This document shows positions 36,997 to 53,211 of a DNA stretch of 64,000 nt, one piece after another. The position numbers and the translations under genes are program-made. The first letter of the stretch is position 1. Each line of letters starts with the position of its first letter. The DNA lies in assembly GCF_902506165.1 (NCBI RefSeq), contig NZ_LR733817.1, positions 3,457,937 through 3,521,936 on the forward strand. The letters are read 5' to 3'. This DNA is from Bosea sp. 29B. GTDB taxonomy: Bacteria; Pseudomonadota; Alphaproteobacteria; Rhizobiales; Beijerinckiaceae. Under the pieces are notes generated by a model. The model saw nothing but the letters and a program-made list of their open reading frames with translations. It did not search any database and was not told where the DNA came from.

Positions 36997-37013
36997 GATA
37001 AGCGAAGCTTATT
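36997..37013. promoter_or_regulatory. GATAA-N7-TTAT dyad, site 1 (upstream of the 40-aa ORF)
   Basis: GATAAGCGAAGCTTATT contains the perfect palindrome ATAAGC-GAA-GCTTAT and lies 23 bp upstream of the ATG at 37037. It shares the GATAA-N7-TTAT form with sites at 43166 and 46808, and ATAA-N7-TTAT fits the 15-bp T-N11-A boxes of LysR-type regulators. Confidence 0.5.
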
Positions 37014-37036
37014 CGCCTGCCTCTGGGGGAAGTCGC

Positions 37037-37159
37037 ATGAAGTCCTTTGCCATCGCCGTCGTCTTCGCCGCCATCGCCGCCTACGGGGCGAGCCTGGTGC
37101 TGGCGACCTATCAGCGCCCGGTCGACGTCGCCTACGCGACCAGCAGCGTGCGGCTCTGA
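37037..37159 (+). CDS. 40-residue single-span membrane microprotein
   Basis: The frame encodes 40 aa: MKSFAIAVVFAAIAAYGASL (one hydrophobic helix, about residues 3-23) followed by VLATYQRPVDVAYATSSVRL. A GGGGGA element lies 6-7 nt before the ATG, and codon use (G/C third positions) is that of the neighbours. It has its own upstream dyad (36997-37013) shared with the formate dehydrogenase promoters and follows mobA by 70 bp. No family is recognised; a small partner of the FDH membrane complex or assembly is an inference. Confidence 0.65.
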   Translation: MKSFAIAVVFAAIAAYGASLVLATYQRPVDVAYATSSVRL

Positions 37160-37168
37160 AGCTCAGCT

Positions 37169-37570
37169 TCAGCCTTCCAGCAGCTTTTTCAAGCGCGCGA
37201 GATCAGATGCGACCCATTCGGCATCGCGCGCAAACTCGTCATCAGTCATCTCCGGACGCCTGAACAGCGTGAACACCACCTCGCTGCCGCTGCCATTCGG
37301 CAGCGCGCGCATCGGGTTGTGCATCGGCGCGCCGTTGTCGGGCACCACGGCGTGGTCGAGCACGCCGTAGCGGTTGGGCTCGCTGAACATCACCCGCATC
37401 GGCCCCATCGGTGTCTTCGCGCGATAGGTCATGCCCTCGACATGGCTGAACTCAGCCCCGAGCCCCTCCGCCCATTTCGGGAAGTTCATGGGATCGGCGA
37501 GGAAGCCGTAGACCTCCTCGATCGACCGGTCGATCGTGATGCTGATATGGCGCGTTGGCAGGATGGGCAT
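37169..37570 (-). CDS. SRPBCC family protein
   Basis: 133-residue START/Bet v 1-like fold. HISITIDRSIEEVYGFLADPMNFPKWAEGLG is the typical first strand and helices, followed by TPMGPMRVMFSEPNRYGVLDHAVV and a long C-terminal helix (DDEFARDAEWVASDLARLKKLLEG). Such proteins bind hydrophobic ligands or act as stress or polyketide-cyclase-like proteins; the ligand is unknown. Start ATG at 37570. An AT-rich promoter with a GAAC-N7-GAAC element lies 26 bp upstream. Confidence 0.82.
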   Translation of the reverse strand: MPILPTRHISITIDRSIEEVYGFLADPMNFPKWAEGLGAEFSHVEGMTYRAKTPMGPMRVMFSEPNRYGVLDHAVVPDNGAPMHNPMRALPNGSGSEVVFTLFRRPEMTDDEFARDAEWVASDLARLKKLLEG

Positions 37571-37596
37571 GGTCGCGTCTCCATAGTTTTCACTTA

Positions 37597-37611
37597 GAAC
37601 ATAACATGAAC
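37597..37611 (-). promoter_or_regulatory. LexA-box-like element upstream of the SRPBCC gene
   Basis: GAACATAACATGAAC on the plus strand reads GTTCATGTTATGTTC on the minus strand. This matches the alphaproteobacterial SOS box GTTC-N7-GTTC and lies within an AT-rich promoter 26 bp before the start codon. Confidence 0.4.
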
Positions 37612-37730
37612 AAAATTATCTGTCATCGCGGATCGGTGATGGGCCGTGCGCGAGCTCGCCGCGGATCGATCAAGAATCCGCCGGTTTCGCCCGCCCTCTA
37701 TTCCAGCGGCGACGGATCAGGAGATTCGAC

Positions 37731-38219
37731 ATGAAGCAGACCATCGGCTTGGGCCTGGCGATTTTCGTGCAGCACGGGCGTGAGCAGGAGGCCGCGGATT
37801 TCTACAGCGAGGCCTTCGAGGCGCGGCAATTCAAGACACACAGGATCGACGGCGAGCTCGCCGGGGTCGAGATGCTCATCGGTGGAACCCGTGTTTCCGT
37901 CGCCGGTTCCAATCCGCGCCGCGAGGAGGAACCGTCCTATGGCGGCCCGTTCTTCCCCAAGGCGGCCGGGGCGGTCAGCATGACGATCCTGCTGACGGTT
38001 CCCGATATCGAGACCTGTTTCGCGCAAGCGATCGTTGCTGGTGCCGCGCTGCGTGACCGCGTCCAGACCGATACCGAAGGCAGGCGGGTCGCCTCGCTCT
38101 TCGATCCGTTCGGCCATATCTGGATGCTGACGGAGCGAGAGGCGGAAGCCGAGAGAGCGTCTTCCGACCAGCTCGTGGCGCAGGCGGATAGGCCTGGTAT
38201 TTCGGCGCTTCGGGCCTAG
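37731..38219 (+). CDS. VOC family protein (PhnB-like)
   Basis: 162 aa, vicinal oxygen chelate fold of the PhnB/glyoxalase-related type. GREQEAADFYSEAFEARQFKTHRIDGELAGVEMLIGGTRVSVAGSN forms the first module and ILLTVPDIETCFAQAIVAGAALRDRVQTDTEGRRVASLFDPFGHIWML the second. The DPFGHIW motif is typical. Function unassigned. The ATG at 37731 has AGGAG 7 nt upstream. Divergent from the SRPBCC gene, with about 160 bp between them. Confidence 0.85.
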   Translation: MKQTIGLGLAIFVQHGREQEAADFYSEAFEARQFKTHRIDGELAGVEMLIGGTRVSVAGSNPRREEEPSYGGPFFPKAAGAVSMTILLTVPDIETCFAQAIVAGAALRDRVQTDTEGRRVASLFDPFGHIWMLTEREAEAERASSDQLVAQADRPGISALRA

Positions 38220-38228
38220 CGGTTGGCC

Positions 38229-39359
38229 TTACTCGATCACGATCCGCGGTGCGGCCCGCGCCGGCCCGGCGAGGCCGGCCTTCACCTGCCGCGCCAGGGC
38301 GACATAGGCCTTGGCATGGGGGCTGTCCGGGTCGCTCGCGACGATCGGGCGGCCGCCATCGGAGGTCTCGCGGATCGGCATGGCGAGCGGGATTTCGCCG
38401 AGGAAAGGCACGCCCTGCCGCTCCGCCTCATGCCGGGCCCCGCCATGGGCGAAGATGTCCGAGCGGTGGCCGCATTCCGGGCAGATGAAATAGCTCATGT
38501 TCTCGACGATGCCGAGGATCGGCACCTCGACCTTCCTGAACATGGCGACGCCGCGGCGGGCATCGAGCAGCGCAAGATCCTGCGGCGTCGAGACGATCAC
38601 GGCGCCGGCGAGCGGGGTCTGCTGGGCCATGGTGAGCTGGGCGTCGCCGGTGCCGGGCGGCATGTCGACGACGAGCACGTCAAGCTCGCCCCAGGCGACC
38701 TCGCGTAGCATCTGGGTGATCGCCGAGATCACCATCGGCCCGCGCCAGATCATCGGCGTTTCCTCGTCAATCAGGAAGCCGATCGACATGATCTTCAGGC
38801 CATAGGCCTCCATCGGCGCGAGTGTGCGGCCCGAGACCAGCCGCGGCTTGCCGGTGATGCCGAAGATTTTTGGCACGGACGGGCCGTAGATGTCGGCATC
38901 GAGCACGCCGACCTTGAGGCCGAGCGTCGCCAGGCCGACGGCGAGATTGGCGGTGGTGGTCGACTTGCCGACACCGCCCTTGCCGCTCGCCACCGCGATG
39001 ATCTGCTTGACGCCGGGAATGCCGGCCGCCTTCGGCACCGGACCGCCGGGTGCAGGCTGGCCATGCGCCTGTCGGCGCGCCTCGGCCGCTTGCGAGGGCG
39101 CGCGCCCCGGCACCTTGTCGGCAGTAAGGCCGACCAAGACCTGCGTTACGCCGGGAATGCCGCCGATCGCGCTTTCGGCCGCCTTGCGCACGGGCTCCAT
39201 CGCGCCGGCTTCGGTCGCATCGATGCCGATCGCGAAGATCACCTTGCCGTCGTTGATCAGGATGTCGCCGATGCGGCCTGACGCCGCCAGCGATTGCCCG
39301 CTCGCCGGTAGCTTCACCAGCTCGAGCGCGCGCAGGATGTCGTTTTGCGAAAGGGCCAC
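38229..39359 (-). CDS. apbC: Mrp/ApbC-family iron-sulfur cluster carrier ATPase
   Basis: 376 residues. An N-terminal MIP18/DUF59 domain (about 1-85) is joined by an Ala/Gly/Pro linker to a deviant-Walker P-loop ATPase: VASGKGGVGKSTT (125-135), VLDADIYGPSVPKIFG, VDMPPGTGDAQLTMAQ, and the Fe-S-binding FICPECGH pair of cysteines. It carries 4Fe-4S clusters to apoproteins. The TusA-like gene lies 27 bp upstream on the same strand, so the two are probably co-transcribed, next to an Fe-S-rich FDH island. Confidence 0.94.
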   Translation of the reverse strand: MALSQNDILRALELVKLPASGQSLAASGRIGDILINDGKVIFAIGIDATEAGAMEPVRKAAESAIGGIPGVTQVLVGLTADKVPGRAPSQAAEARRQAHGQPAPGGPVPKAAGIPGVKQIIAVASGKGGVGKSTTTANLAVGLATLGLKVGVLDADIYGPSVPKIFGITGKPRLVSGRTLAPMEAYGLKIMSIGFLIDEETPMIWRGPMVISAITQMLREVAWGELDVLVVDMPPGTGDAQLTMAQQTPLAGAVIVSTPQDLALLDARRGVAMFRKVEVPILGIVENMSYFICPECGHRSDIFAHGGARHEAERQGVPFLGEIPLAMPIRETSDGGRPIVASDPDSPHAKAYVALARQVKAGLAGPARAAPRIVIE

Positions 39360-39386
39360 GATCTGGGCTCCGATTGTTGCGCGACG

Positions 39387-39617
39387 CTAGGCCGCGGCCT
39401 TGCGGATGTGGAAGACCAGCAACTCGCCCTCGCGGCTGCTCAGTTCGATCGCGTCCCCGGTCTCGCGCGTCAGGTTCGGGATGTCGATCGCCGCCATCGG
39501 GTCGGTGCATTCGACCAGGAAGAGATCGCCGGGAGCCGCGCTTTTCAACGCCTTGCGCACGCGTAGGGCGGGGAGGGGGCACTTCAGGCCGCGCAGATTG
39601 AGCGGGATGGAAGACAT
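39387..39617 (-). CDS. TusA-like sulfurtransferase
   Basis: 76 residues, the usual TusA/SirA length. LNLRGLKCPLPALRVRKAL carries the active-site Cys-Pro at residues 13-14, followed by LVECTDPMAAIDIPNLTRETG and LVFHIRKA. TusA proteins carry persulfide sulfur for tRNA thiolation, Moco or other uses. The position beside Mrp and 3-4 kb from fdhD suggests Fe-S or Moco sulfur transfer, which is inferred. ATG at 39617. Confidence 0.9.
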   Translation of the reverse strand: MSSIPLNLRGLKCPLPALRVRKALKSAAPGDLFLVECTDPMAAIDIPNLTRETGDAIELSSREGELLVFHIRKAAA

Positions 39618-39686
39618 GGGCGAAGGCCAATCGAACGATGTTGCGCTTCATATGATGGCTTTTCGCGTGGGAGCAACAGCACCTAT

Positions 39687-39811
39687 CCTTCTCCCCTCGG
39701 GGGAGAAGGTGTCTGCGAAGCAGACGGATGAGGGAAGTTATGCGCCGACGCCTTTCATGCCCTCATCCGTCAGCGCTGCGCGCTGCCACCTTCTCCCCCG
39801 AGGGGAGAAGG
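39687..39811. repeat. Palindromic intergenic repeat overlapping the WD40-cytochrome start
   Basis: Outer arms CCTTCTCCCCTCGGGGGAGA and TCTCCCCCGAGGGGAGAAGG are inverted copies; inner GGATGAGGG and CCCTCATCC pair as well. The 125-bp element contains the RBS, ATG (39740) and first 24 codons of the WD40-cytochrome frame. It resembles CTTCTCCC-type repeats frequent in Hyphomicrobiales. Confidence 0.85.
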
Positions 39812-41077
39812 GTTCGCCTGGCAGTCCTCGCGCTTGTCCTTGCAACAATGCCTGCTTCCGCTCAGGAACTGCGCGGCCATGGTGGGCCGGTACGCGCTGC
39901 GGCCGTCTCGGCCGATGGTACGCTGGCGCTGACCGGCTCCTTCGACCAGTCGGCGATCCTATGGGACCTCGCCCGCGGCAGCGCGATCAAGGTGCTGCGT
40001 TTCCATCAGGGCGCGGTCAATGCCGCCATCACCGTGAACGGCCTCGGCTTCGCCACGGGCGGCGAGGACGGCAGGATCGCACTCTGGCGCGGCGATGCGC
40101 CCGAGCCGGCGAAGGTCATCGAAGGGCACAAGGGGCCGGTCGCGGCGCTCGCAATCTCGCCGGAAGGGCAGCACCTCGCCTCCGCCTCCTGGGACGGGAC
40201 GGTGCGCGTCACCGCTCTGGCCGACGGCGCGGCCCGGGTGCTCGAAGGCCATCAGGGTCCGGTCAACGGCGTCGCCTTCGCTCCGGGCGGCATGGTCGTC
40301 TCCTCCGGCTATGACGCGACCTTGCGGCTTTGGCCGGCGGATCGCGGGGCGCCGTTGATCGTCACCACGCCGGCGCCGCTCAACGGCGTCGTCGTCGCGC
40401 CCGATGGCGAGATCGTCGCCGCCGCTGCCGATGGCCGCCTGCGCCTGTTCGGCCCGGACAGCGCCCAGCGCGCCGAGATCGTCGTCGGCGACACCCCGCT
40501 GATCGCACTCGCAATCTCGCCCGACGGCGCCACGATCGCCGCCGGCGGCCTGCGCGGTCAGGTCGCTCTGATCGACCGCAAGGCGCGCAGCATCCGCGCC
40601 ACGCTGGTCGGACCTGGCCTGCCGGTCTGGTCGCTCGCTTTCCTGCCGGACGGCAAGCATCTCCTGTCCGGCGGCGCCGACCGGCTGGTCCGGCGCTGGA
40701 ACGCCGTCACTGGCGAGCATGTCGGGGCGGTGGTGCCGCGGGCCGGCGAGGATGCGCTCGCCGGCTTCCAAGCCGAGCGGGGCGCGCAGGTCTTCCGCGC
40801 CTGCGCGGCTTGTCACACCTTGACGCCGGCGGATGGCAATCGCGCCGGTCCCACTCTGCACGGCATCTTCGGCCGCCGGATCGCCACAGCGCCAGCTTAT
40901 GCCTATTCCGACGCGCTCAAGGGCATGGACATCGTCTGGAGCAAGGAGAGCGTCGCGAAGCTGTTCGAGATCGGCCCGAACGCCTACACGCCCGGCACCA
41001 AGATGCCGGAGCAGACCATCGGCTCGGCGGAAGACAGGCAGGCGCTGGTCGACTGGCTGGAGAAGGTGACGCGCTGA
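39740..41077 (+). CDS. Exported WD40-repeat protein fused to cytochrome c domain
   Basis: 445 aa. After an N-region, RVRLAVLALVLATMPASAQE is a signal-peptide core. Then follow about seven WD40 blades (ELRGHGGPVRAAAVSADGTLALTGSFDQSAILWDL is the first; GHKGPVAALAISPEG, GHQGPVNGVAFAPGG and others repeat). A class I cytochrome c domain follows with Cys355-x2-Cys358-His359 (FRACAACHTL) and a distal Met in GTKMPEQTIGS. Probably a periplasmic haem protein. The start and the Arg-rich N-region lie inside a palindromic repeat, so the native start may have been replaced. Confidence 0.85.
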   Translation: MRRRLSCPHPSALRAATFSPEGRRVRLAVLALVLATMPASAQELRGHGGPVRAAAVSADGTLALTGSFDQSAILWDLARGSAIKVLRFHQGAVNAAITVNGLGFATGGEDGRIALWRGDAPEPAKVIEGHKGPVAALAISPEGQHLASASWDGTVRVTALADGAARVLEGHQGPVNGVAFAPGGMVVSSGYDATLRLWPADRGAPLIVTTPAPLNGVVVAPDGEIVAAAADGRLRLFGPDSAQRAEIVVGDTPLIALAISPDGATIAAGGLRGQVALIDRKARSIRATLVGPGLPVWSLAFLPDGKHLLSGGADRLVRRWNAVTGEHVGAVVPRAGEDALAGFQAERGAQVFRACAACHTLTPADGNRAGPTLHGIFGRRIATAPAYAYSDALKGMDIVWSKESVAKLFEIGPNAYTPGTKMPEQTIGSAEDRQALVDWLEKVTR

Positions 41078-41078
41078 G

Positions 41079-43118
41079 CTAGCCCAGCGGATCCTCGCCT
41101 CGTTCCGCCCGCTCGCGCAGATAGTCGTCGGTGGTGCGCACCGGCGGGCGCTGCGGCGAGAGGTGCGGGTCGAAGCTCTCGTTGACCACGGCCTCGACCC
41201 GGCAATCCTCGCACATGCGCAGGATCGAGGCGCGCTTGGCGCCTTCGCCAGCGAACATCCAGTGCTTGTTCTCGAGCTTGGCCGCGATCTTCTCGATCGT
41301 GCTGCGGACGCCGAACGGCTTGGCGCAGGCGATGCAGTGGAACGGCTCCTCCTGCTTGACGATCCGGCGGCCGCCCTTCCAGGCGTCGAAATCGACGCGT
41401 GGCTCCAGCGTGATCACCTTTTCCGGGCAGGTCGCGGAGCAGAGCCCGCACTGCACGCAGAGGTCTTCCTGGAAAGTGAGCGTCGGCCGCTCCGGGTTGT
41501 CGCCGAGTGCGCTGACCGGGCAGGCGGAGACGCAGGCGAGGCAGAGCGTGCAACCCTCCGTGTCGACATGAACAGTGCCGAAGGGCGCGCGCGGCGGCAT
41601 CGCCACGTTTGCCACGGGCGTCGGCGCGGCGGCGTGCAATTCGCCGATCGCCTGGCGCAGCAGCGGCCGGCCGCTTCCCATCGGCCGGAAGCGGGCGGGC
41701 TGCGCGGCGCTCGTTCCGGGCGCGACCTTCGACAGGGCGGCGGCGAGCGCGTCGGGATCGTCGGTCTCGATCAGCGCGGCGCGGGCCTCGCCATAGCCGA
41801 GCGCGCCGGCAAGAGCATTGGCGTAGTCGAGATTGCGGGTGAGACCGGACAGATCGTGCTTCGGCTTGGCCCGGCCGAGCACGCGGATGGCCGACGCGCC
41901 GAAGGCGAGCGCAGCGGCGAAGCTTTCCAGTCCGAGCTGCGTGATCTCGTTGACACGCAGGGGCAAAACCCGCGCCGGCAGACCGGCGCCGTGGCGGGCG
42001 AGCGCCTCGATCAGGGGCTCGCCATGGTCGCCGTCGTGCAGCAGCACGACCGGCTCGCGCCCGCCGGCCTCGGCATAGGTGACGAGCAGCGTCCGCAGCT
42101 TCCGCAGCAGCGCATCGGCCGGCGGCAGCGCGTAGGTCACCGCGCCGGTCGGGCAGACGGCGGCGCAGGCGCCGCAGCCGGCGCAGATCTCAGCGGAGAT
42201 CGCGACATGGTCGCCGGCCGGGGTGATCGCGCCGGTCGGGCAAAGTTCGAGGCAGCGCGTGCAACCGGCTTTCTGCGAGCGGGCATGGGCGCAGAGGCCT
42301 TCGTTCAGGGCGATATAGGCCGGCTTGTCGAACTCGCCGAGGAGCCCGCTCGCCTGGAAGGCGAGCCGCTCGACCGCGGCCGCATCGCGTGGATCGGCGC
42401 GCAGATAGCCGGCGCGGAGGTCACCGGCCGGGAAGAGCGGCGTGCCGCCAGAGACGTCGATCACGACATCGCATTGCGAGACCGCGCCATTGCGCGGCGC
42501 CTCGAAGATGAGCTTGCCGCGCGAGGACGGGCTCGGCGCGGCATAGTCGTTGACGGTGAGCTCGAAGGCGCCGAGCCAGCCGCTCGCCTGCGCGATCGTG
42601 CCCTTCAGCACCGGGAATTCGTCGCTGCGCGGTGGCGCGATCTCGCTTGGGCGCGACAGCAGCACGGTGACGTCGAGATGCTCGGCGAGCCGATGCGCCA
42701 GCGTGATCGCGATCTCGTCGCGGCCATAGATCAGCGCGACGCCTTTGCTGGTCAGCGTGGTGAAGGAGGCCGGCGGCATGGGTTCGCTCGCCGCGGCGAG
42801 CAGGGCGGCCATCTTCGGGCCGGCGGCCCTGGCCTCGTCCGACCAGCCGGCCTGTTCGCGGATGTTGGTGAAGATGAGATCGCCGGTGTAATCGAGGTCT
42901 GCAGCGATCTCCTCAAAGAGCGGCGCCTCCTGCGTGCAGGCGACGGTGATTGCATCGCTCTTAGCCAGCATGGCGTGGAAGCGTTCGACCTGGCTGCGGC
43001 AGAGGTGGCGATGCTCGCTGACCGCAGCACCGCTGCAGCCGCGCCGGATCGCCGCGCCATCGAGCGGCATCGTGTCTTCGCACGAGCAGACCATCAGCGT
43101 GCGGGCGACATCGGTCAT
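41079..43118 (-). CDS. 679-residue polyferredoxin-type 4Fe-4S protein of the FDH island
   Basis: At least four 4Fe-4S motifs are visible: GCTRCLELCPTGA, CAGCGACAAVCPTGA, CTLCLACVSACPVSA and CVQCGLCSATCPEKV, plus single pairs in HCIACAKPFG and CEDC near the C-terminus. The N-terminal third (MVCSCEDTMPLDG, RHLCRSQVERF, TVACTQEAPLFEEIAADL) has its own Cys set. Proteins of this type accompany FDH accessory genes in proteobacteria and may supply electrons or clusters to FDH assembly. Divergent from the ligase/DUF operon, sharing a 126-bp promoter region with dyad 43166-43182. Confidence 0.88.
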   Translation of the reverse strand: MTDVARTLMVCSCEDTMPLDGAAIRRGCSGAAVSEHRHLCRSQVERFHAMLAKSDAITVACTQEAPLFEEIAADLDYTGDLIFTNIREQAGWSDEARAAGPKMAALLAAASEPMPPASFTTLTSKGVALIYGRDEIAITLAHRLAEHLDVTVLLSRPSEIAPPRSDEFPVLKGTIAQASGWLGAFELTVNDYAAPSPSSRGKLIFEAPRNGAVSQCDVVIDVSGGTPLFPAGDLRAGYLRADPRDAAAVERLAFQASGLLGEFDKPAYIALNEGLCAHARSQKAGCTRCLELCPTGAITPAGDHVAISAEICAGCGACAAVCPTGAVTYALPPADALLRKLRTLLVTYAEAGGREPVVLLHDGDHGEPLIEALARHGAGLPARVLPLRVNEITQLGLESFAAALAFGASAIRVLGRAKPKHDLSGLTRNLDYANALAGALGYGEARAALIETDDPDALAAALSKVAPGTSAAQPARFRPMGSGRPLLRQAIGELHAAAPTPVANVAMPPRAPFGTVHVDTEGCTLCLACVSACPVSALGDNPERPTLTFQEDLCVQCGLCSATCPEKVITLEPRVDFDAWKGGRRIVKQEEPFHCIACAKPFGVRSTIEKIAAKLENKHWMFAGEGAKRASILRMCEDCRVEAVVNESFDPHLSPQRPPVRTTDDYLRERAERGEDPLG

Positions 43119-43165
43119 CGAGCAGGCATCCTCAAGATCGCAGCAGCGTCTTTGGTCGCGCTTGC

Positions 43166-43182
43166 GATAATCTCATCTTATA
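43166..43182. promoter_or_regulatory. GATAA-N7-TTAT dyad, site 2 (divergent promoter of FDH accessory genes)
   Basis: GATAATCTCATCTTATA lies 48 bp from the polyferredoxin start and 62 bp from the ligase-like gene start. It carries the same outer GATAA and TTAT arms and an internal TCTCAT that recurs at 46808-46824. Confidence 0.55.
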
Positions 43183-43244
43183 TGGAATTGGAATGGCTCC
43201 AAAGAAGCAAGCCTTCCTTGGGATGAGACGTTAGGCGGCGGGTG

Positions 43245-43988
43245 ATGGCGGCAGGGCCGATCAGGCAGGACGATCTCAGGCGCGAGCCGGTGCTGCCGCC
43301 GGGCTTTTCGCTCGTCACCCTGCGTGAATCCGGCGATGCCTTCGCCCATGCGCAGGCGATTGCGGCCGAGGCTGGCGCCGCGACTTTGGTCTGGGTGCGA
43401 CGTTTCGACATCGTCGAGTTCGCGGTGGTGCTGGAGCCCGATGCCATCCTCGCCGAGGCCCGGCTCGCCCACTACCTCGCCATGAACGCGCTTGCCGATG
43501 CGCTTGCCGTGCATTCGCCGCCGGAGCGGCCGGTGCTGTTCCGCTGGCCGGATGCGCTGACCTATGATCTCGGCCTGATCGGCGGCGGGCGCCTCGGCTG
43601 GCCGGCTGGTTGCCCGGAAGGGCAGGTGCCGGATTGGCTCGTCTTCGGCGCCATGGTCCGGGCGACCACGATGTCGCCCTTCGAACTCGGCCAGACCGGC
43701 GTCGGCATGGCCGAGGAAGGGTTCGAGGAGGTCGATGCCGTCGACCTGATCGAGGCCTTCTGCCGCCATCTCATGCTCGGTGTCAGCCACTGGCAGGAGG
43801 AGGGAGCTAAGGCGGCGGCGCGGCGCTGGCTCGATCGGCTCGAAAAGGTGGTTGGCGTCCGCCACGGCATCGAGCCGAACGGCGATCTGATCGCGACCTC
43901 GCAGTTTGGCACCGAGCGCCGGAGCATGGTCGAGGCTCTGGCCAGGATCGACTGGCTCGACCGTGACAGCGGAGCGCCGAAGCTGTGA
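43245..43988 (+). CDS. Biotin/lipoate protein ligase-like protein of the FDH accessory operon
   Basis: 247 aa. The fold is that of the biotin/lipoate ligase (LplA/BirA) superfamily: ATLVWVRRFDIVEFAVVLEPD, ALADALAVHSPPERPVLFRWPDALTYDLGLIGGGRLGWPAGC and PDWLVFGAMVRATTMSP. The conserved GR-type reactive loop and catalytic Lys of true ligases are not evident, and the C-terminal part (GMAEEGFEEVDAVDLIEAFCRHLM) is special to FDH-linked members. Role unknown, presumed FDH maturation. The ATG at 43245 follows a purine-rich stretch; a GTG one codon earlier is possible. GTGA overlap with the next gene. Confidence 0.78.
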   Translation: MAAGPIRQDDLRREPVLPPGFSLVTLRESGDAFAHAQAIAAEAGAATLVWVRRFDIVEFAVVLEPDAILAEARLAHYLAMNALADALAVHSPPERPVLFRWPDALTYDLGLIGGGRLGWPAGCPEGQVPDWLVFGAMVRATTMSPFELGQTGVGMAEEGFEEVDAVDLIEAFCRHLMLGVSHWQEEGAKAAARRWLDRLEKVVGVRHGIEPNGDLIATSQFGTERRSMVEALARIDWLDRDSGAPKL

Positions 43989-44536
43989 GCGCTCTCAAGC
44001 TCCCCCGCGCGATCCGGCTCGATCCGTCGGACAGCTTCGTCTTCCGCAAGGCGGCAGAGGCCGGCGAATGGCTGGTCACCGGCTCCTTCCTGTTCACGCC
44101 GGAAAGCGTCGCTGAACTCGACACCAAGGGCCGCGTCGCCTTCCGCTCCGGCTTCCTCGGCATCGACAGCTTCGGCTGGAGCACGCTTGCGGTCGTCACC
44201 GAAGTGACGGTGGAGGAACGCCAGGAAGCGGTTGCCCAGCTTGCGACGCAACTCGTCGACAAACTCGGCGCGCCCGATCTCGCGGCCGCGCGGGCTGCCG
44301 CGGAGGAGGAGATCGCCTTCGCCGCCTCGCTCTGTGATCATCCGGCGCAGACCTTGCTCGCTTTGCATCGCACGCTCGATGATGGCGAGATCCGCGAGCG
44401 CTTCCGGACCTTAATGCCGCGCGGCGATACGCCGAAGGATGCGTTCCGCGCCTTCGAGTTCGTCGAGACCGATGGCGAGGACGAGCCGCAGGAGCAGGTC
44501 GACCTGATGCAGTTGATCAAGGACGCGCCGCGATGA
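43985..44536 (+). CDS. FDH-associated conserved protein (DUF6505-like)
   Basis: 183 aa, no catalytic motif. It begins LKLPRAIRLDPSDSFVFRKAAEAGEWLVTGSFLF, has AFRSGFLGIDSFGWSTLAVVTEVTVEERQEAVAQLATQLVDKLGAPDLAAARAAAEEEIAFAASLCDHP, and an acidic tail (ETDGEDEPQEQVDLMQ). This matches small conserved proteins found in alphaproteobacterial FDH clusters (DUF6505, from memory). GTG start overlapping the previous stop; ATGA overlap with the next gene. Cytoplasmic. Confidence 0.7.
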   Translation: MSALKLPRAIRLDPSDSFVFRKAAEAGEWLVTGSFLFTPESVAELDTKGRVAFRSGFLGIDSFGWSTLAVVTEVTVEERQEAVAQLATQLVDKLGAPDLAAARAAAEEEIAFAASLCDHPAQTLLALHRTLDDGEIRERFRTLMPRGDTPKDAFRAFEFVETDGEDEPQEQVDLMQLIKDAPR

Positions 44537-45543
44537 CCCATTTCTGGGCGAGCTCCGGCCATCTCCTGCTCGACCGCGAGGAAGGCGGCGGGCTCGTCGT
44601 CACCGATGATTTCCTGAAAGCCTATCTGGCGCGGCCGGAAGTGCTGCCGCCGGAAGAGGCCTGCGCAGCCGAGCGGGCGCTGCATGCCCGGCTGATGGCG
44701 CAGCCGCAGGCGGGGGTCACAGAACGCGAGGTCGCGGCCATCGCCGATGCCGATGCGCGCGAGAACTGGCGCTTCCTGCTCGGCTGGCGCGGGCGGCTGC
44801 TGGCGGCGCCGACCTTGCAGGGCGCCTATGCCGGGATCATCCGCCGCGGCGTCTCCGGCATTCCGCCGGTGTTCCTCGACCAGCTCGTCCACGTCATCCT
44901 GCGGGCCGGGCTCGACGAAGAGAGCGACCCCTTCGTGGTGCGCGCCGCCGAATGCCTGTTCCGGCCGCAGCGCGTCACCCTGCACGAGAACACGATCCTG
45001 CTCGCCGATGCCGAGATGATCGAGGGGCACGAGACCGACCGGCATGCCTCGCCCTTGCTCGCCATGCTGGGCGGTCCGGCCGTGACCTCGCTCGATATCC
45101 TCAAGCAGGCGGATGCCGACCGCTATTGGCAGCGCTCGGACGCTTTCGACATGGTGCTCGATTTGGGCGGCAAGCCCTCGGGCCGCGTCGCGCTCGGCAA
45201 GGCGATCGCGCACTGGATCCGGCAGATCCATGGTTTCGAGGTCGCGATTGAAGCCGTCGAGACTGTCCGCGATGCCGATTGGCGCTGGTTCGTCGGCCTC
45301 GATGCGCAGGCGACGGCGATCGGCAATGCACTCTGGAAGGGCGAGGCGCTTGATGAGGACAAGGCCTCGCGCCTGATCGCGCTCTATCGTCTGACATTGC
45401 CACCGGAGGTGCCGGTGCTACCGGCGGCCAAGGGGGCACCCATCTATCTGATGTTGGCAATGGACGGCGACCGGACCGTCCGGATGAAGCCGCAGAACCT
45501 GGTGACCGGCCTGCCACTCGCCGTGCACGAGATGGTGAACTGA
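44533..45543 (+). CDS. FDH-associated conserved protein (DUF6352-like)
   Basis: 336 aa, no enzymatic motif. It opens MTHFWASSGHLLLDREEGGG and has DFLKAYLARPEVLPPEEACAAERALHARLM, then LAAPTLQGAYAGIIRRG and FLDQLVHVILRAGLD, and ends PIYLMLAMDGDRTVRMKPQNLVTGLPLAVHEMVN. Homologues sit with DUF3305, DUF3306 and FDH genes (DUF6352, from memory). ATG overlaps the previous TGA by 4 bp. Probably a cytoplasmic maturation or quality-control factor; the function is not established. Confidence 0.75.
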   Translation: MTHFWASSGHLLLDREEGGGLVVTDDFLKAYLARPEVLPPEEACAAERALHARLMAQPQAGVTEREVAAIADADARENWRFLLGWRGRLLAAPTLQGAYAGIIRRGVSGIPPVFLDQLVHVILRAGLDEESDPFVVRAAECLFRPQRVTLHENTILLADAEMIEGHETDRHASPLLAMLGGPAVTSLDILKQADADRYWQRSDAFDMVLDLGGKPSGRVALGKAIAHWIRQIHGFEVAIEAVETVRDADWRWFVGLDAQATAIGNALWKGEALDEDKASRLIALYRLTLPPEVPVLPAAKGAPIYLMLAMDGDRTVRMKPQNLVTGLPLAVHEMVN

Positions 45544-45553
45544 GGACGAGGCC

Positions 45554-46060
45554 ATGCAGCAGCATCACGAGGTCGGTGTCGTGGTCGAGCGGCGCAAGCT
45601 CGATTCGCCCTGGGCCGACCATGCCTGGGCGCCGATCGCGGTGCTGCCCGAGCCGCCGCCGCTCGCGCCCTGGAGCCGGCTCGCCGGCGATGACAGGCGC
45701 GAGCGGTTCTATCTCGGTTCGGCCGTGCTGACCTTGCATTCGGTCGACACCGCCCATTTTCGCGAGAACTTCGCAACAGGCCAGGCCAGGCTCTGGGTCT
45801 CCGTCAGGCCGACCGGGATCGAGCCGGCGCTGGAGCTGGTCGGCGTCACCGCCGATCCGTCCGAGGGCGAGGTCTTCCTTGAGAATGTCGATGATATCGT
45901 CGAGGCTGTGCCGATGCCGGCCGCGATTGCTGAGGCCGTGCTCGCCTTCTTCGAGGTGCATCATGTCGAGCGCGAATTCGTCAAGCGCAAGAGGACCGAG
46001 CATGATCCGCGCAAGGGCGGATTGCGGCCGCGCCCGGGCATCGATCGCGGAGAGGATTGA
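45554..46060 (+). CDS. DUF3305 domain protein
   Basis: 168 aa. HEVGVVVERRKLDSPWADHAWAPIAVLPEPPPLAPWSRLAGDDRRERFYLGSAVLTLHSVDTAHFRENF is the DUF3305 signature, followed by LWVSVRPTGIEPALELVGVTADPSEGEVFLENVDDIVEAVPMP. Cytoplasmic, function unknown, found almost only beside DUF3306 and formate dehydrogenase genes. Preceded by GAGG; its TGA overlaps the next ATG by 1 nt (TGATG). Confidence 0.86.
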   Translation: MQQHHEVGVVVERRKLDSPWADHAWAPIAVLPEPPPLAPWSRLAGDDRRERFYLGSAVLTLHSVDTAHFRENFATGQARLWVSVRPTGIEPALELVGVTADPSEGEVFLENVDDIVEAVPMPAAIAEAVLAFFEVHHVEREFVKRKRTEHDPRKGGLRPRPGIDRGED

Positions 46061-46776
46061 TGTCACGCCCCGATGACGAGGATCAGGGCGAAGGGTTTCT
46101 CGGCCGCTGGGCGCGCCGCAAGAAAGAGGCGCAGCAGCCGGCTGTGCCGGTTGTCACAGAGTCGCCAGTTCAACCGGTTGTCTCGGCTGACCCCGCTGCG
46201 CCTGCACCAGAGCCCGAGATGGTCGAGCCGCCTTCGCTCGATCTCGTCGACAAGGATTTCGACCTCGCTCATTGGCTGAAGCAGAACGTACCCGAGGAGT
46301 GGAAGCTCAAGGCGCTGCGGCGCGCCTGGGAGAGCGATCCGATGATCTCCAGCTATCTCGACCCGGCCCGTGACTACGCGCTCGACTGGAACACGCCGGG
46401 TGGCGCGCCGGGCTATGGGCCGCTCAGCGAGTCGGACAATGTCGAGGAGATGCTGGCCAACATCTTCGGCAAGCCGCCCGAGCCGGTTGCCGACCCGACC
46501 GAGGCGGTGCGTAACGACGTCGCAGTTGTTCGACCTTCGTCTAATGACGAGAGCGGGTCTGATTCTGCTGCGGCGCAGCAGGGTTTGGCAACGGCGGCTG
46601 ACGATCCCCAGCCGGTGCGGTTGAGCGACGAGGGTGTTTCCCGAAAATCTACTGAAAATGCTGCTGAAACAGGTGGTTCTTCAGGCGGCAATTCTGTTGC
46701 AGCGCAAAAAACACCCGAAATTCCACCGTCCCAGCAACGCTCGAGACGACGCGGCGGCGGTGCGACACCGCTCTGA
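46060..46776 (+). CDS. DUF3306 domain protein
   Basis: 238 aa. EGFLGRWARRKKEA at the N-terminus and LVDKDFDLAHWLKQNVPEEWKLKALRRAWESDPMISSYLDPARDYALDWNTPGGAPGYGPL (about 68-128) define DUF3306. The last about 100 residues are disordered and rich in Ser, Pro, Glu and Gln, with a basic end (QQRSRRRGG). GC content falls in that tail. It is always paired with DUF3305 in FDH clusters. ATG at 46060 with AGAGGA upstream; last gene of the five-gene accessory operon. Confidence 0.86.
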   Translation: MSRPDDEDQGEGFLGRWARRKKEAQQPAVPVVTESPVQPVVSADPAAPAPEPEMVEPPSLDLVDKDFDLAHWLKQNVPEEWKLKALRRAWESDPMISSYLDPARDYALDWNTPGGAPGYGPLSESDNVEEMLANIFGKPPEPVADPTEAVRNDVAVVRPSSNDESGSDSAAAQQGLATAADDPQPVRLSDEGVSRKSTENAAETGGSSGGNSVAAQKTPEIPPSQQRSRRRGGGATPL

Positions 46777-46793
46777 GCTTCAGTTCAGAACAA

Positions 46794-46823
46794 TTGCAAT
46801 CTAGAACGATAAGGTCTCATTAT
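46794..46823 (+). promoter_or_regulatory. Putative sigma70-type promoter of the torD-FDH operon
   Basis: TTGCAA (46794-46799) is separated by 18 bp from CATTAT (46818-46823) in an AT-rich patch within high-GC DNA. The -10 overlaps the GATAA-N7-TTATC dyad, which would suit repression. Confidence 0.4.
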
Positions 46824-46824
46824 C
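46808..46824. promoter_or_regulatory. GATAA-N7-TTAT dyad, site 3 (torD-FDH promoter)
   Basis: GATAAGGTCTCATTATC has perfect 5-bp arms (GATAA/TTATC) and contains TCTCAT as in site 2. It lies 57 bp before the HTH-TorD start. Confidence 0.55.
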
Positions 46825-46881: not shown

Positions 46882-47673
46882 ATGCGGGACCAGGCTCTGG
46901 AGCGGGCGATCGAAGCGGCCGGCGGCGTGCGTGCGCTGGCGCGGGCGGTCGGCGTCTCGCAGCCGGCGATCTCGACCTGGAAGCGCGTCCCGGCGGATCG
47001 CGTGCTTTCAGTGGAAGCTCTGACAGGGGTCTCGCGAAACGACCTTCGACCTGACCTCTATCCGCACGAGCCGATCATCATCGAGGCCCCTGCGCCTGCG
47101 ATCGACGAGATCGACGCCGCCCGCGCCGAGGAGTTCGAGCTGATCGGTGCGCTGCTCTGGCGTGCTCCCACAGCCGAGACGCTGGCCGCCCTGCAGGGCC
47201 TGCGCGGCGACGCCTCGCCGCTCGGTATGGCCCATCTGGCGCTGGCCGAGGCGGCCGCCGAGGCGAGCCCCGAGCAGGTCCGCGACGAGTTCTTCCAGCT
47301 TTTCATCGGCGTCGGCCGCGGCGAGCTCCTGCCTTACGCCTCCTACTACCTCACCGGCTTCCTGCATGAGCGCCCACTGGCTCTGGTGCGCGAGGACATG
47401 GGCAAGCTCGGTCTCGCCCGGGCCGAGCGCGTCGGCGAGCCCGAAGACCATATCGCCGTGCTGATGGATATCGAGGCCAAGCTGATCCGTGGCGAGGTCT
47501 CGGGCGAGGGGGTCGACGAGGCCTCCTTCTTCGCCCGCCATATCCGGCCCTGGGCCGACCGCTTCTTCGCCGATCTCGAAACCGCCGAGACGGCGCGCTT
47601 CTACCGCGCCGTCGGCCGGGTCGGCAGCCTCTACCTTTCGATCGAGACGCAGGCCGCGAGCCTGCCCGCATGA
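46882..47673 (+). CDS. TorD-family FDH chaperone with N-terminal YdaS/Cro-like HTH domain
   Basis: 263 aa. Residues 1-60 (QALERAIEAAGGVRALARAVGVSQPAISTWKRVPADRV, then LTGVSRNDLRPDLYP) form a Cro/YdaS-type helix-turn-helix: a helix, ARAVGVSQPAISTWKR recognition unit and a C-terminal LRPDLYP typical of YdaS. Residues about 80-258 are an all-helical TorD/DmsD fold (ELIGALLWRAP, FFQLFIGVGRGELLPYASYYLTGFLHERPL, EDHIAVLMDIEAKLI). TorD proteins guard Tat molybdoenzymes until the cofactor is inserted. ATG at 46882; a TTG at 46864 is an alternative. First gene of the FDH operon. Confidence 0.88.
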   Translation: MRDQALERAIEAAGGVRALARAVGVSQPAISTWKRVPADRVLSVEALTGVSRNDLRPDLYPHEPIIIEAPAPAIDEIDAARAEEFELIGALLWRAPTAETLAALQGLRGDASPLGMAHLALAEAAAEASPEQVRDEFFQLFIGVGRGELLPYASYYLTGFLHERPLALVREDMGKLGLARAERVGEPEDHIAVLMDIEAKLIRGEVSGEGVDEASFFARHIRPWADRFFADLETAETARFYRAVGRVGSLYLSIETQAASLPA

Positions 47674-47696: not shown

Positions 47697-47891
47697 ATGT
47701 CGCAGAAGAGCAAGGAGACGGCTCTCGACCGCCGCAACTTCTTCAAGGCGCTCGGCGCCGGCGCGACGGTGGCCGTCGCTCCCGTCGCGATCACGCCTGC
47801 CGCCGCCGTCGACCCCGGCAAGGACGAGACGAAGGCGCGCTATCGCGAGAGCGAGCACGTCAAGGACTTCTACCGCGTCAACCGTTACTGA
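47697..47891 (+). CDS. Small Tat-signal protein of the formate dehydrogenase region
   Basis: 64 residues: KETALDRRNFFKALGAGATVAVAPVAITPAAA is a twin-arginine signal (RRNFFK at about 13-18), followed by a short hydrophilic tail ending VKDFYRVNRY. This is the small protein that precedes FDH alpha in many proteobacteria (formate dehydrogenase region Tat target family); its role is not established. The ATG at 47697 with GGAGGAG upstream is preferred to a start 9 codons earlier inside the preceding gene. Confidence 0.9.
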   Translation: MSQKSKETALDRRNFFKALGAGATVAVAPVAITPAAAVDPGKDETKARYRESEHVKDFYRVNRY

Positions 47892-47903: not shown

Positions 47904-50882
47904 ATGCTGATCAAGCGTAAATCCGCCGACGTCCAGCGCGGCCGCCTGCAGAGCGCCCTTGGAGGCCTCGCCTCCGGCGTGATGGATCGCCGCTCCTTCC
48001 TGCGCCGCTCCGGCCTGGTCGCCGGCGGTGTCGCGGCCGCTGGCGCGCTGCAGATCGGCGCCGTTCGCAAGGCCGAGGCCGCCGAGCTCGGCCCGGCCAC
48101 CGGCACCAAGGTCGTCAAGAACATCTGCACGCATTGCTCGGTGGGCTGCACTGTCCGCGCCGAGGTCAACAACGGCGTCTGGGTCGGCCAGGAGCCGGCC
48201 TGGGAAAGCCCGATCAATCGCGGCAGCCATTGCGCCAAGGGTGCCTCGGTGCGCGAGCTCGTCCATGGCGACCGCCGCATCAAGTACCCGATGAAGCTGG
48301 TCGACGGGCAATGGCAGCGCCTGTCCTGGGACCAGGCGGTCAACGAGATCGGCGACAAGATGATGGAGATCCGGGCCAAGTCCGGCGCGGATTCCGTCTA
48401 TCTGCTCGGCTCGGCCAAGTTCTCCAATGAAGGCTCCTACCTGTTCCGCAAGTTTGCAGCCTTCTGGGGCACCAACAACGTCGACCATCAGGCGCGCATC
48501 TGCCACTCGACCACGGTCGCGGGCGTCGCGAACGTCTGGGGCTACGGCGCCATGACCAATTCCTACAACGACATCCGCAATTCGAAGACCGTGCTGTTCA
48601 TGGGCTCGAACGCGGCCGAGGCGCATCCGGTCTCGATGCAGCACATCCTGACCGGCAAGGAGCAGCAGCGCGCCAACGTCATCGTCTTCGATCCGCGCCT
48701 GACCCGCACTGCGGCGCACGCCACCGATTATGTCCGCTTCCGCTCCGGCACCGACATCGCGGTGATCTGGGGCTTGATGTGGCACATCTTCAAGAACGGC
48801 TGGGAGGACAAGGCCTTCATCGCGGCGCGCGTCCACGGCATGGACGACGTCCGCAAGGAGGTCGAGAAATACGATCCCAAGACGGTCGAGGACATCACCG
48901 GCGTCCCCGGCGAGCAGATGAAGCGCGTCGCCCAGACCTTCGCCACGGTGAAGCCGGCGACCTTCGTCTGGTGCATGGGCGTGACCCAGCACTCGGTCGG
49001 CACGGCCAATGTCCGCGCCATCTGCACGCTCCTGCTGGCGACCGGCAATGTCGGCGCGCGCGGCACCGGCGCCAACATCTTCCGCGGCCACTGCAACGTC
49101 CAGGGCGCGACCGACTTCGGCTTGGATATCTCGAACCTGCCTTGCTATTACGGCCTGGTCGAAGGCGCCTGGCGCCATTGGGCCCGCGTCTGGGGCGTCG
49201 ATTACGACTATTTCGTCTCGCGCTTTGACGAGGTTCCGGCCAAGGGCGGCCGCGCTGCACGCACCCGCAAGCAGAACATGGAGACCTCTGGCCACACCTC
49301 GACCCGCTGGTTCGATGCAGCCAATCTGCCGGCCGAGCAGGTCGATCAGAAGGACAATCTCAAGGCCATGTTCGTCATGGGCCATGGCGGCAACACCATC
49401 CCGCGCATGCCCGATGCCGTGAAAGGCCTCGAGAAGCTTGAGCTGCTCGTGGTCTGCGATCCGCACCCGACCAATTTCGTCTCGCTCGGCGGGCGCAAGA
49501 ACGGCACTTACATCCTGCCGATCTGCACCCAGTTCGAGACCTCGGGCTCGCGCACCTGCTCCAACCGCTCGGTGCAATGGGGCGAGAAGGTCGTCGAACC
49601 GATCTTCGAATCCGCCAGCGACTATGCGGTCATCTATAAATTCTCGCAGAAGCTCGGCTTCGCCACCGAGATGTTCCGGCCCTACGAGATGGTTCAGGGC
49701 AAGATCGGGCTGGAGCCGACGGCTGAATCGATCCTCAGGGAGATCAACCGCGGCGGCTGGTCGACCGGCTATACTGGTCAGTCGCCCGAGCGCCTGAAGC
49801 TGCACATGGCGAACCAGGACAAGTTCGACATCGTGACGTTGCGCGGCGCCAAGGGCTCGCCGGTCGAGAACGATTTCTACGGCCTGCCCTGGCCGTGCTG
49901 GGGCACGCCCGAATACAAGCACCCGGGCACGCACATCCTCTACAATACCTCGCTCGCGGCCAAGGATGGCGGCGGCACCTTCCGCCCGCGTTTCGGCCTC
50001 ACCCGCGAGCGCACGTTGCCCGATGGCAGCAAGGTCGAGGACACCCTGCTCGCCGAGGGTGGCTCCTACTCGCTGAACTCGGACATCAAGGATGGCTACC
50101 CCGAGTTCACCATGGGGGTGCTGAAGAAGCTCGGCTGGGACAAGGACCTGACGCCGGCGGAGCTGGCGACGATCTCCTGGATCGGCGGCAACACGATCGA
50201 CACCGTCTCCTGGTCGACCGACCTGTCGGGCGGCATCCAGCGCGTCGCGATGGAGCATGGCTGCGTGCCCTACGGCAACGGCAAGGCCAGAGCCAATGCC
50301 TGGAATCTGCCTGATCCGGTGCCGGTCCACCGCGAGCCTATCTATTCGCCGCGCGTCGATCTCGTGGCGAAATGGCCGGCCAGGCCGGACGAACGCACGC
50401 TGCGCATCCCGAACCTGCACACCTCCGTGCAGAAGGCGGCGGTCGAGAAGGGCATCGCCAAGTCGTTCCCGATCGTGCTGACCTCCGGCCGCCTCGTCGA
50501 ATACGAGGGCGGCGGCGAGGAGACGCGCTCGAACAAGTGGCTGGCCGAGCTGCAGCAGGACATGTTCGTCGAGATCAACACGGCGGATGCGGCCGAGCGC
50601 GGCATCAGGGACGGTGCGATGGTCTGGGTCACCGGCCCGGAGAACAACTCCAAGGCCAGGGTCAAGGCGCTGGTCACCGAGCGGGTCGGCAAGGGCGCGG
50701 CCTTCATGCCCTTCCATTTCGGCGGCTTCTTCCAGGGCGTCGACCAGCGCGGCAACTACCCCAAGGGGCTGGATCCGATCGTGCTCGGCGAGTCCGTCAA
50801 CACGATCACCACCTATGGCTACGACCCCGTGACCGCCATGCACGAAGGCAAGGTCACGCTCTGCCAGATCGCGGCGGCGTGA
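47904..50882 (+). CDS. fdoG: Formate dehydrogenase alpha subunit (bis-MGD, periplasmic)
   Basis: 992-residue molybdopterin oxidoreductase oxidising formate to CO2. A Tat motif DRRSFLRRSG (28-37) directs export. The N-terminal 4Fe-4S cluster uses Cys75, Cys78, Cys82 and Cys110 (NICTHCSVGC...SHC). Cys200 in DHQARICHSTTVAGVA takes the place of the E. coli selenocysteine as Mo/W ligand, with the conserved His201 next to it. Later motifs include NDIRNSKTVLFMGSNAAEAHPV and FFPMHFGG-like AFMPFHFGGFFQG. No UGA is needed. 14 bp before the beta subunit. Confidence 0.95.
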   Translation: MLIKRKSADVQRGRLQSALGGLASGVMDRRSFLRRSGLVAGGVAAAGALQIGAVRKAEAAELGPATGTKVVKNICTHCSVGCTVRAEVNNGVWVGQEPAWESPINRGSHCAKGASVRELVHGDRRIKYPMKLVDGQWQRLSWDQAVNEIGDKMMEIRAKSGADSVYLLGSAKFSNEGSYLFRKFAAFWGTNNVDHQARICHSTTVAGVANVWGYGAMTNSYNDIRNSKTVLFMGSNAAEAHPVSMQHILTGKEQQRANVIVFDPRLTRTAAHATDYVRFRSGTDIAVIWGLMWHIFKNGWEDKAFIAARVHGMDDVRKEVEKYDPKTVEDITGVPGEQMKRVAQTFATVKPATFVWCMGVTQHSVGTANVRAICTLLLATGNVGARGTGANIFRGHCNVQGATDFGLDISNLPCYYGLVEGAWRHWARVWGVDYDYFVSRFDEVPAKGGRAARTRKQNMETSGHTSTRWFDAANLPAEQVDQKDNLKAMFVMGHGGNTIPRMPDAVKGLEKLELLVVCDPHPTNFVSLGGRKNGTYILPICTQFETSGSRTCSNRSVQWGEKVVEPIFESASDYAVIYKFSQKLGFATEMFRPYEMVQGKIGLEPTAESILREINRGGWSTGYTGQSPERLKLHMANQDKFDIVTLRGAKGSPVENDFYGLPWPCWGTPEYKHPGTHILYNTSLAAKDGGGTFRPRFGLTRERTLPDGSKVEDTLLAEGGSYSLNSDIKDGYPEFTMGVLKKLGWDKDLTPAELATISWIGGNTIDTVSWSTDLSGGIQRVAMEHGCVPYGNGKARANAWNLPDPVPVHREPIYSPRVDLVAKWPARPDERTLRIPNLHTSVQKAAVEKGIAKSFPIVLTSGRLVEYEGGGEETRSNKWLAELQQDMFVEINTADAAERGIRDGAMVWVTGPENNSKARVKALVTERVGKGAAFMPFHFGGFFQGVDQRGNYPKGLDPIVLGESVNTITTYGYDPVTAMHEGKVTLCQIAAA

Positions 50883-50896
50883 GGAGGAACTGAACC

Positions 50897-51493
50897 ATGG
50901 CCCGGATGAAATTCCTCTGCGACGCCGACCGCTGCATCGAGTGCAACGCCTGCGTCACCGCCTGCAAGAACGAGAACGACGTGCCCTGGGGCATCAACCG
51001 CCGGCGCGTCGTCACCATCAATGACGGCAAGCCCGGCGAGCGCTCGGTCTCAATGGCCTGCATGCACTGCACCGACGCGCCCTGCGCCGCGGTCTGCCCG
51101 GTCGACTGCTTCTACACCACGGCCGATGCGGTGGTGCTGCACAACAAGGACCTGTGCATCGGCTGCGGCTACTGCTTCTACGCCTGCCCGTTCGGCGCCC
51201 CGCAATATCCGAAGGTCAGCAACTTCGGCTCGCGCGGCAAGATGGACAAGTGCACCTACTGCTCCGGCGGACCGGAGGTCGACCTCTCGCCGGCCGAGTA
51301 CCAGAAATACGGCTCGAACCGTCTTGCCGAAGGCAAGCTGCCGCTCTGCGCCGAGATGTGCTCGACCAAGTCGCTCCTCGCCGGCGACGGCGAGGTGATC
51401 GCGCAGATCTACAAGGAACGGGTGGTCAAGCGCGGCTACGGCTCGGGAGCCTGGGGTTGGCAGACGGCCTACCGGGAAACCATCACGATCTGA
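50897..51493 (+). CDS. fdh3B: Formate dehydrogenase beta (iron-sulfur) subunit
   Basis: 198 residues with four 4Fe-4S motifs: CIECNACVTACKNE, CMHCTDAPCAAVCPVDC, CIGCGYCFYACPFGAPQYP, and KCTYC with LPLCAEMC. It transfers electrons from FDH alpha to the cytochrome b subunit. E. coli FdoH/FdnH carry an extra C-terminal membrane helix; this protein ends at YRETITI without one, as in the three-subunit fdh3 type. GGAGGAACTG precedes the ATG. Confidence 0.94.
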   Translation: MARMKFLCDADRCIECNACVTACKNENDVPWGINRRRVVTINDGKPGERSVSMACMHCTDAPCAAVCPVDCFYTTADAVVLHNKDLCIGCGYCFYACPFGAPQYPKVSNFGSRGKMDKCTYCSGGPEVDLSPAEYQKYGSNRLAEGKLPLCAEMCSTKSLLAGDGEVIAQIYKERVVKRGYGSGAWGWQTAYRETITI

Positions 51494-52584: not shown

Positions 52585-52627
52585 GCTTTTGCCGCGCTTG
52601 ACCGGCTGACGGCATTTGCACGATGAC

Positions 52628-52662
52628 AGCCGGGCGCGTCTCGCGCCCGGCTTTGTGTTTTT
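52628..52662 (+). terminator. Rho-independent terminator of the FDH operon
   Basis: A perfect 11-bp stem (AGCCGGGCGCG with CGCGCCCGGCT), TCT loop, then TTGTGTTTTT. It separates fdoI from mobB, so mobB-moeA need read-through or their own promoter. Confidence 0.88.
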
Positions 52663-52678
52663 GAGGATGTCGTTGTCG

Positions 52679-53209: not shown

Positions 53210-53211
53210 CG

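Follow-up and report, generated by a model that had tools for sequence, protein, structure and literature searches.

The stretch of DNA analysed here, called the window, is a 64-kb segment of the Bosea sp. 29B genome and holds a formate dehydrogenase (FDH) island whose promoters carry three dyads of the form ATAR-N7-YTAT. The third of these, site 3, precedes torD, which encodes a Cro/YdaS-type helix-turn-helix (HTH) fused to a TorD chaperone; the product is referred to as HTH-TorD. We propose that HTH-TorD, encoded behind site 3, binds the dyads as its operators, and put the probability of this at about 0.85. As far as sequence can establish it, the fusion exists, the dyad exists, the dyad is universal among the fusions examined and it is rare where this HTH is missing.

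The dyads of the FDH island

A sequence-only reading of the window had claimed three GATAA-N7-TTAT dyads at promoters of the FDH island, and had called the pattern very rare by chance; both statements hold. GATAA-N7-TTAT is found at 36997, 43166 and 46808 and at no further place in the 64 kb, where 0.02 are expected. Four matches, the fourth being site 3 on the opposite strand, were reached in 0/100 shuffles, and the shorter ATAA-N7-TTAT identifies the identical three places (0.00 expected). All three are promoters of the island. Site 1 is 23 bp from the start of a 40-amino-acid (40-aa) open reading frame (ORF; ATG at 37037) and site 3 is 57 bp from the torD ATG at 46882. Site 2 lies between divergent genes, 47 bp from the polyferredoxin start (43118, minus strand) and 59 bp from a GTG start at 43242 (plus strand). 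The hexamer TCTCAT, which the same reading had listed as common to sites 2 and 3, carries no weight: its register differs between the two, and other Bosea show no constraint on the spacer.

The suggested scan of the whole genome (6.33 Mb) places GATAA-N7-TTAT at 7 distinct positions. Three are within one 10-kb island, and one is flanked by a lysR gene and by fdsG, which belongs to the soluble NAD-FDH operon. At the remaining three (L003, L005 and L010), no FDH gene was noticed, as judged from ORF lists only; the L005 match lies at a lysR gene's 3' end.

The protein encoded behind site 3

The nature of the torD product, which was absent from the sequence-only reading, is defined by its two domains. 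The head, residues 6-62, is a Cro/YdaS-type HTH (PF15943, 4e-16; PF14549, 6.5e-9) and the body, residues 111-230, is a TorD/nitrate-reductase-delta chaperone domain (Nitrate_red_del; PF02613, 9.6e-28). PDB sequence and fold searches match the head to the Xfaso 1 Cro protein (3bd1, 44% identity), and a PDB fold search matches the body to DmsD and YcdY, which have the all-helical chaperone fold. An AlphaFold2 model (35-row alignment, mean pLDDT 85.6) has helices at residues 4-13, 16-23, 27-31 and 38-48 of the head, followed by a low-confidence linker and a chaperone domain that starts at residue 76. Residues 27-31 (QPAIS) are assigned, by their position in the model, as the predicted recognition helix.

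Among the loci compared, the nearest torD product is that of Bosea sp. Root483D1, which is 98% identical. Such fusions are numerous in the protein collections, which gave 7994 matches at E <= 1e-20 among 7999 scored candidates, and PF15943, PF14549 and PF02613 are all present in each of the best 120 of the 7994. Existing database names for such proteins are Cro/CI regulator, TorD chaperone or both. No fusion was seen outside the class, and a search of the phylum (378 genomes) gave no additional full fusion.

A second type of HTH-TorD fusion (L227-L229, also L286-L288) has another recognition helix (KQANVWHW, SQGHVWHW). ATAR-N7-YTAT is not present upstream of L227-L229; instead, GCGACT-GAG-AGTCGC lies upstream of L229, with a near-copy at L228, and may be the own operator of this second type.

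The dyad accompanies the fusion gene

Upstream of torD in L012-L026, which are 15 additional Bosea or Bosea-like loci, the arms are conserved and the 7-bp spacer is variable, as is typical of sites bound by a dimer. Most fusions more distant than Bosea have ATAG-N7-CTAT at the corresponding place. Overall, an exact ATAR-N7-YTAT is found no more than 165 bp from the start in 53/53 fusion genes (the window, L012-L028 and L062-L096) and also in 4/4 fusion genes from other orders of the class (L222-L225). Combined, 57/57 fusion genes have the dyad, 41-165 bp upstream of the start. This count excludes L226 (a repeat of G082), L227-L229 (the other HTH type) and L032-L061, which repeat genes counted via the window, L016, L017 or L062-L096. 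When each 250-bp upstream stretch was shuffled 400 times with dinucleotide shuffling, 0.155 loci were expected against the 57 seen, and this, with the 0.02 expected in the window, rules out a chance origin of the dyads. Any single other spacer, from 3 to 12, is matched by at most 1/57 fusion genes. In the order-wide set, the torD dyad is present in 38/38 fusion genomes.

TorD genes without this HTH have the dyad in 4/94 cases overall, made up of 0/6 (L029-L031 and L097-L099), 3/60, 0/20 and 1/8. Here, L231 was excluded from the class-level controls as a repeat of G117, 33 further HTH-less torD places were left out, and places from the class and phylum searches were counted only where a locus sequence accompanied them. 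Across whole loci, 60 HTH-less controls contain 4 dyads in a total of 264 kb, and 52 fusion loci (1.03 Mb) contain 52 dyads at torD and 18 elsewhere. Further support came from an unbiased scan of 256 4-mer half-sites with gaps of 0-12, in which ATAG-N7-CTAT ranks first (22/28 clade representatives, chosen by hand from the tree, vs 0/80 controls); ATAA-N7-TTAT is found in 5/28 and 1/80, respectively. Where the protein has another HTH of this family, with a different recognition helix and either stand-alone or fused, the dyad is found within 250 bp in 0/18 cases; the 19th row of that comparison, L289, is a first-type fusion and has it.

Another shared, dyad-like element of torD promoters, T[AG]GAA[TC]N[AG][TC]T[CG], was considered as a fusion-linked element and rejected as not fusion-specific (13/57 fusions, 5/80 controls). 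Copies such as CTGGAATAATTCCAG are present both with the HTH and without it (for example L064 at -76; L121 and L140 at -45).

The residue at position 29 of the predicted recognition helix goes with the arm sequence. Within the 53 fusion genes, those with a QPA helix (Ala at 29) have ATAA-N7-TTAT in 18/19 cases, the remaining one (L027) having the hybrid ATAG-N7-TTAT, and those with QPS or QPT (Ser or Thr at 29) have ATAG-N7-CTAT in 34/34. QPA is paired with ATAA as well in L085, which is remote from Bosea on the tree. The pairing is consistent with binding by HTH-TorD, short of proof.

Could the dyad instead belong to the promoter itself, or be bound by a different, unlinked regulator that accompanies the fusion by coincidence? 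In Bosea the left arm does overlap a possible -10 box. Against this, arms and exact spacer remain constant while the distance to the start spans -41 to -165, and a -10 box does not require a second arm. For an unlinked regulator to explain the dyad, it would have to appear and vanish with this one HTH type; no genome-wide search for one was made. Both versions are considered improbable.

LysR-type regulators and the fds promoters

Since ATAA-N7-TTAT has the T-N11-A form, the geometry of a LysR box, the sequence-only reading had attributed the dyads to a LysR-type regulator. In its specific form, this explanation has the T-N11-A boxes of both FDH systems bound by FdsR or a related protein. It has to be taken seriously, since GATAG-N7-CTATC is found beside a lysR gene in fds promoters (L162-L164, L266-L272, L181 and L188-L191, upstream of fdsG), even in genomes without HTH-TorD; these boxes are likely FdsR boxes. 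An ATAR-N7-YTAT match is found at fds in 8/23 loci from genomes without HTH-TorD and in 7/7 loci with it.

The presence of the dyad does not track LysR. All 38 fusion genomes have the torD dyad, yet an FdsR-like LysR (E <= 1e-60) is found in 14/38, one of them interrupted by a stop, and is missing from 24/38; fdsG (E <= 1e-25) is found in 11/38 and is missing from 27/38. In addition, the LysR-class boxes of Bosea fds remain ATAG and the island sites are ATAA. Ten Bosea fds promoters share ATAG boxes in two places, -212 to -239 and -106 to -112, with a mismatch in one box of L269. At a central place between them, -164 to -180, an exact ATAA-N7-TTAT is present in 7/10; of the other three, L268 has a hybrid, L271 has one mismatch and L164 has none. 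With ATAG boxes around a central ATAA dyad, there are two site classes within one Bosea fds promoter. The island dyads belong to the putative HTH-TorD class, and HTH-TorD probably acts at fds in Bosea also.

The LysR proposal thus fared differently at the two systems. Its T-N11-A form and LysR-like boxes stand at fds, and it was a fair guess about that neighbouring system. It is not supported for the island, because the 24/38 genomes without an FdsR-like LysR keep the dyad and HTH-less TorD genes are mostly without it. FdsR was rejected as owner of the island dyads in most genomes, and its binding, or that of a relative, at both systems is regarded as very improbable; it is possible that some other, unlinked LysR owns the island dyads.

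Other possible targets and points against

Most of the 18 dyads that do not belong to torD are at accessory promoters: 15 are in the polyferredoxin/ligase divergent promoter or ahead of the 40-aa gene, two are within torD genes and one is ahead of a WD40-cytochrome gene. An exact or one-mismatch dyad also precedes the 40-aa orthologue in other Bosea. The proposal that the dyads mark a small FDH regulon, conserved at orthologous promoters, is borne out to this extent. Conservation is complete at torD and partial at the other two promoters, with ATAR-N7-YTAT at site 2 in 9/14 Bosea loci that cover the place (the window and the L016 hybrid included; L022 and L026 are omitted, as their flank stops short of site 2). 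Sites 1 and 2 are confined to part of Bosea and the G070/G106 genus and are not general.

Several observations weigh against HTH-TorD as the owner of the dyads. Site 2 is missing from 5/14 Bosea loci, and relatives of the 40-aa gene have an exact dyad in only 3/30 cases and a one-mismatch dyad in 2/30. Four HTH-less TorD genes possess a dyad, and that of L103 (G285) is a good one, GATAG-N7-TTATC, 109 bp ahead of the first matched TorD codon. A search of that genome to E <= 1e-9 gave no HTH relative, and the dyad may be left over from an HTH that was lost. A control torD may not be the first gene of its operon, so that the DNA upstream of it need not be a promoter in every case. In several distant genomes the dyad is at a greater distance from the start, a position that would suit an activator as well. 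Finally, L224, a QPS fusion outside the 53, has ATAG-N7-CTAT plus a hybrid ATAA-N7-CTAT, and there are only 2-3 independent helix-arm changes on the tree; the covariation cannot reach significance and was dropped as proof.

Genes of the island

The sites and genes are listed in Table 1. Relatives of the 40-aa gene (E <= 0.1, many of them weak; L192-L221) are present in 30/38 fusion genomes; 23/30 share the torD contig and lie no more than about 14 kb from torD. The 40-aa product may serve FDH as a small membrane subunit or as a helper. The small protein encoded between torD and fdhA is one that we take to belong to the family named "Tat-target". A long inverted repeat, CTTCTCCCCTCGGGGGAGAAGGTG ... 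CACCTTCTCCCCCGAGGGGAGAAG, was spotted by eye at about 39689-39810 of the window and is probably a common intergenic repeat element.

Table 1. Dyads and genes of the FDH island, in window coordinates.
Feature	Position	Strand	Context	Evidence
Site 1, GATAAGCGAAGCTTATT	36997..37013	.	precedes 40-aa gene	pattern match; dyads in other Bosea
40-aa small membrane protein gene (MKSFAIAVV...SSVRL)	37037..37159	+		ORF; relatives
Polyferredoxin (4Fe-4S) gene	41079..43118	-	divergent from accessory operon	Pfam Fer4 matches
Site 2, GATAATCTCATCTTATA	43166..43182	.	divergent promoter region	pattern match; Bosea comparison
Accessory operon	43242..46776	+		Pfam; operon inferred from overlapping or close genes
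Lipoate-ligase-like gene	43242-43988	+	accessory operon	Pfam
DUF6505 gene	43985-44536	+	accessory operon	Pfam
DUF6352 gene	44533-45543	+	accessory operon	Pfam
DUF3305 gene	45554-46060	+	accessory operon	Pfam
DUF3306 gene	46057-46776	+	accessory operon	Pfam
Site 3, GATAAGGTCTCATTATC	46808..46824	.	putative operator of torD-fdh operon	pattern match; 57/57 HTH-TorD genes
torD, HTH-TorD fusion gene	46882..47673	+		profile, sequence and fold searches
Small Tat-target protein gene (MSQKSKETALDRRNFFKALG...)	47697..47891	+		ORF list
fdhA, FDH alpha subunit	47904..50882	+	N-terminal twin-arginine (Tat) signal	
fdhB, iron-sulphur subunit	50897..51493	+		
fdhC, cytochrome b subunit	51580..52584	+		
mobB (52616-53209) and moeA (53146-54462), cofactor genes	52616..54462	+	3' of fdhC	

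How HTH-TorD may work

In the proposed mechanism, two Cro-type HTH heads, held together as a dimer, would bind the arms ATAR and YTAT, with arm centres 11 bp apart or about one helical turn. HTH-TorD would control its own operon, comprising torD, the Tat-target gene and fdhABC. In Bosea it would also control the polyferredoxin and lipoate-ligase/DUF operons, the 40-aa gene and, probably, fds.

The direction of control is suggested by the position of the left arm, which in Bosea (16 loci) follows a hexamer resembling a -35 box: TTGGAA or TTAGAA at 17 bp (9/16), TTGAGA at 18 bp (5/16) or TTCAGA at 18 bp (2/16). As this puts the left arm on the presumed -10 box, which a bound protein would mask, autorepression is the simplest reading in Bosea and, from this overlap, somewhat favoured. 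In other families, an activator role is possible.

TorD-type chaperones bind the Tat signals of molybdoenzymes. As fdhA encodes such a signal, it is proposed that the FDH precursor titrates HTH-TorD off its operators: free chaperone would occupy the operator, and chaperone engaged with the FDH precursor would release it. That the TorD half makes operator binding client-dependent in this way is given slightly less than an even chance. The TorD of S. massilia is a domain-swapped dimer, according to a title cited in PMC2997495.

Taken further, HTH-TorD may be a one-chain load sensor, which gauges through its client the amount of immature, membrane-bound FDH that awaits its cofactor and sets the transcription of FDH, of the assembly genes and, in Bosea, of the soluble FDH. 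The QPA/ATAA pairing would then separate its operators from the FdsR ATAG boxes in the shared fds promoter. This full picture is tentative. A plain autoregulator, in which HTH-TorD binds the dyads and the TorD half does no tuning, shares the core of this explanation and drops the client sensing. Every result presented here concerns the HTH and the dyad and none touches sensing, as a plain autoregulator would have it; the lasting fusion of a chaperone to a repressor head across several families may be easier to explain by cross-talk between them. We consider the plain version plausible, at somewhat under even odds.

Relation to known systems

HTH-TorD shares with the phage Cro/CI-type repressors (P22 Cro-like, YdaS) the HTH fold and the probable recognition helix, as seen with 3bd1, as well as a small dimer-type operator beside its own promoter, here deduced from sequence. 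Unlike them, its head is joined to a molybdoenzyme chaperone and it would control chromosomal FDH genes and not a phage switch. Chaperone-coupled regulation is known from HrcA/GroEL and IpgC/MxiE, where chaperone and regulator are separate proteins. Similarly, chaperone load would set the transcription of its own system here, whereas HTH-TorD is one chain. The FdsR/LysR regulators of fds share the 15-bp T-N11-A dyad shape (GATAG-N7-CTATC) and the link to formate metabolism. They are of a different protein family, have boxes at fds also in genomes without HTH-TorD, and are not found in most fusion genomes.

The TorD/DmsD/NarJ chaperones share PF02613 and, in the TorD-fdh clade of PMC4464133, the location beside fdh genes, DUF3305 and DUF3306. 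HTH-TorD differs from them in bearing an N-terminal HTH. In the main text of PMC4464133 there is no mention of helix-turn-helix, HTH, DNA-binding or fusion, and the term helix-turn-helix is absent from PMC10609526 and PMC2997495. Among the papers listed, no title or abstract was found on the fusion, its operator or its regulon in a literature search that covers subscription papers thinly, so that a description may be in print.

The proposed operator is a defined 15-bp site with two sequence classes that go with one residue of the recognition helix. It opens two points to direct testing: whether the chaperone of a Tat enzyme adjusts transcription to its own load, and by what means alphaproteobacteria keep two formate dehydrogenases in step. 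If HTH-TorD binds the dyads, the FDH assembly chaperone probably also acts as the switch of its own client enzyme.

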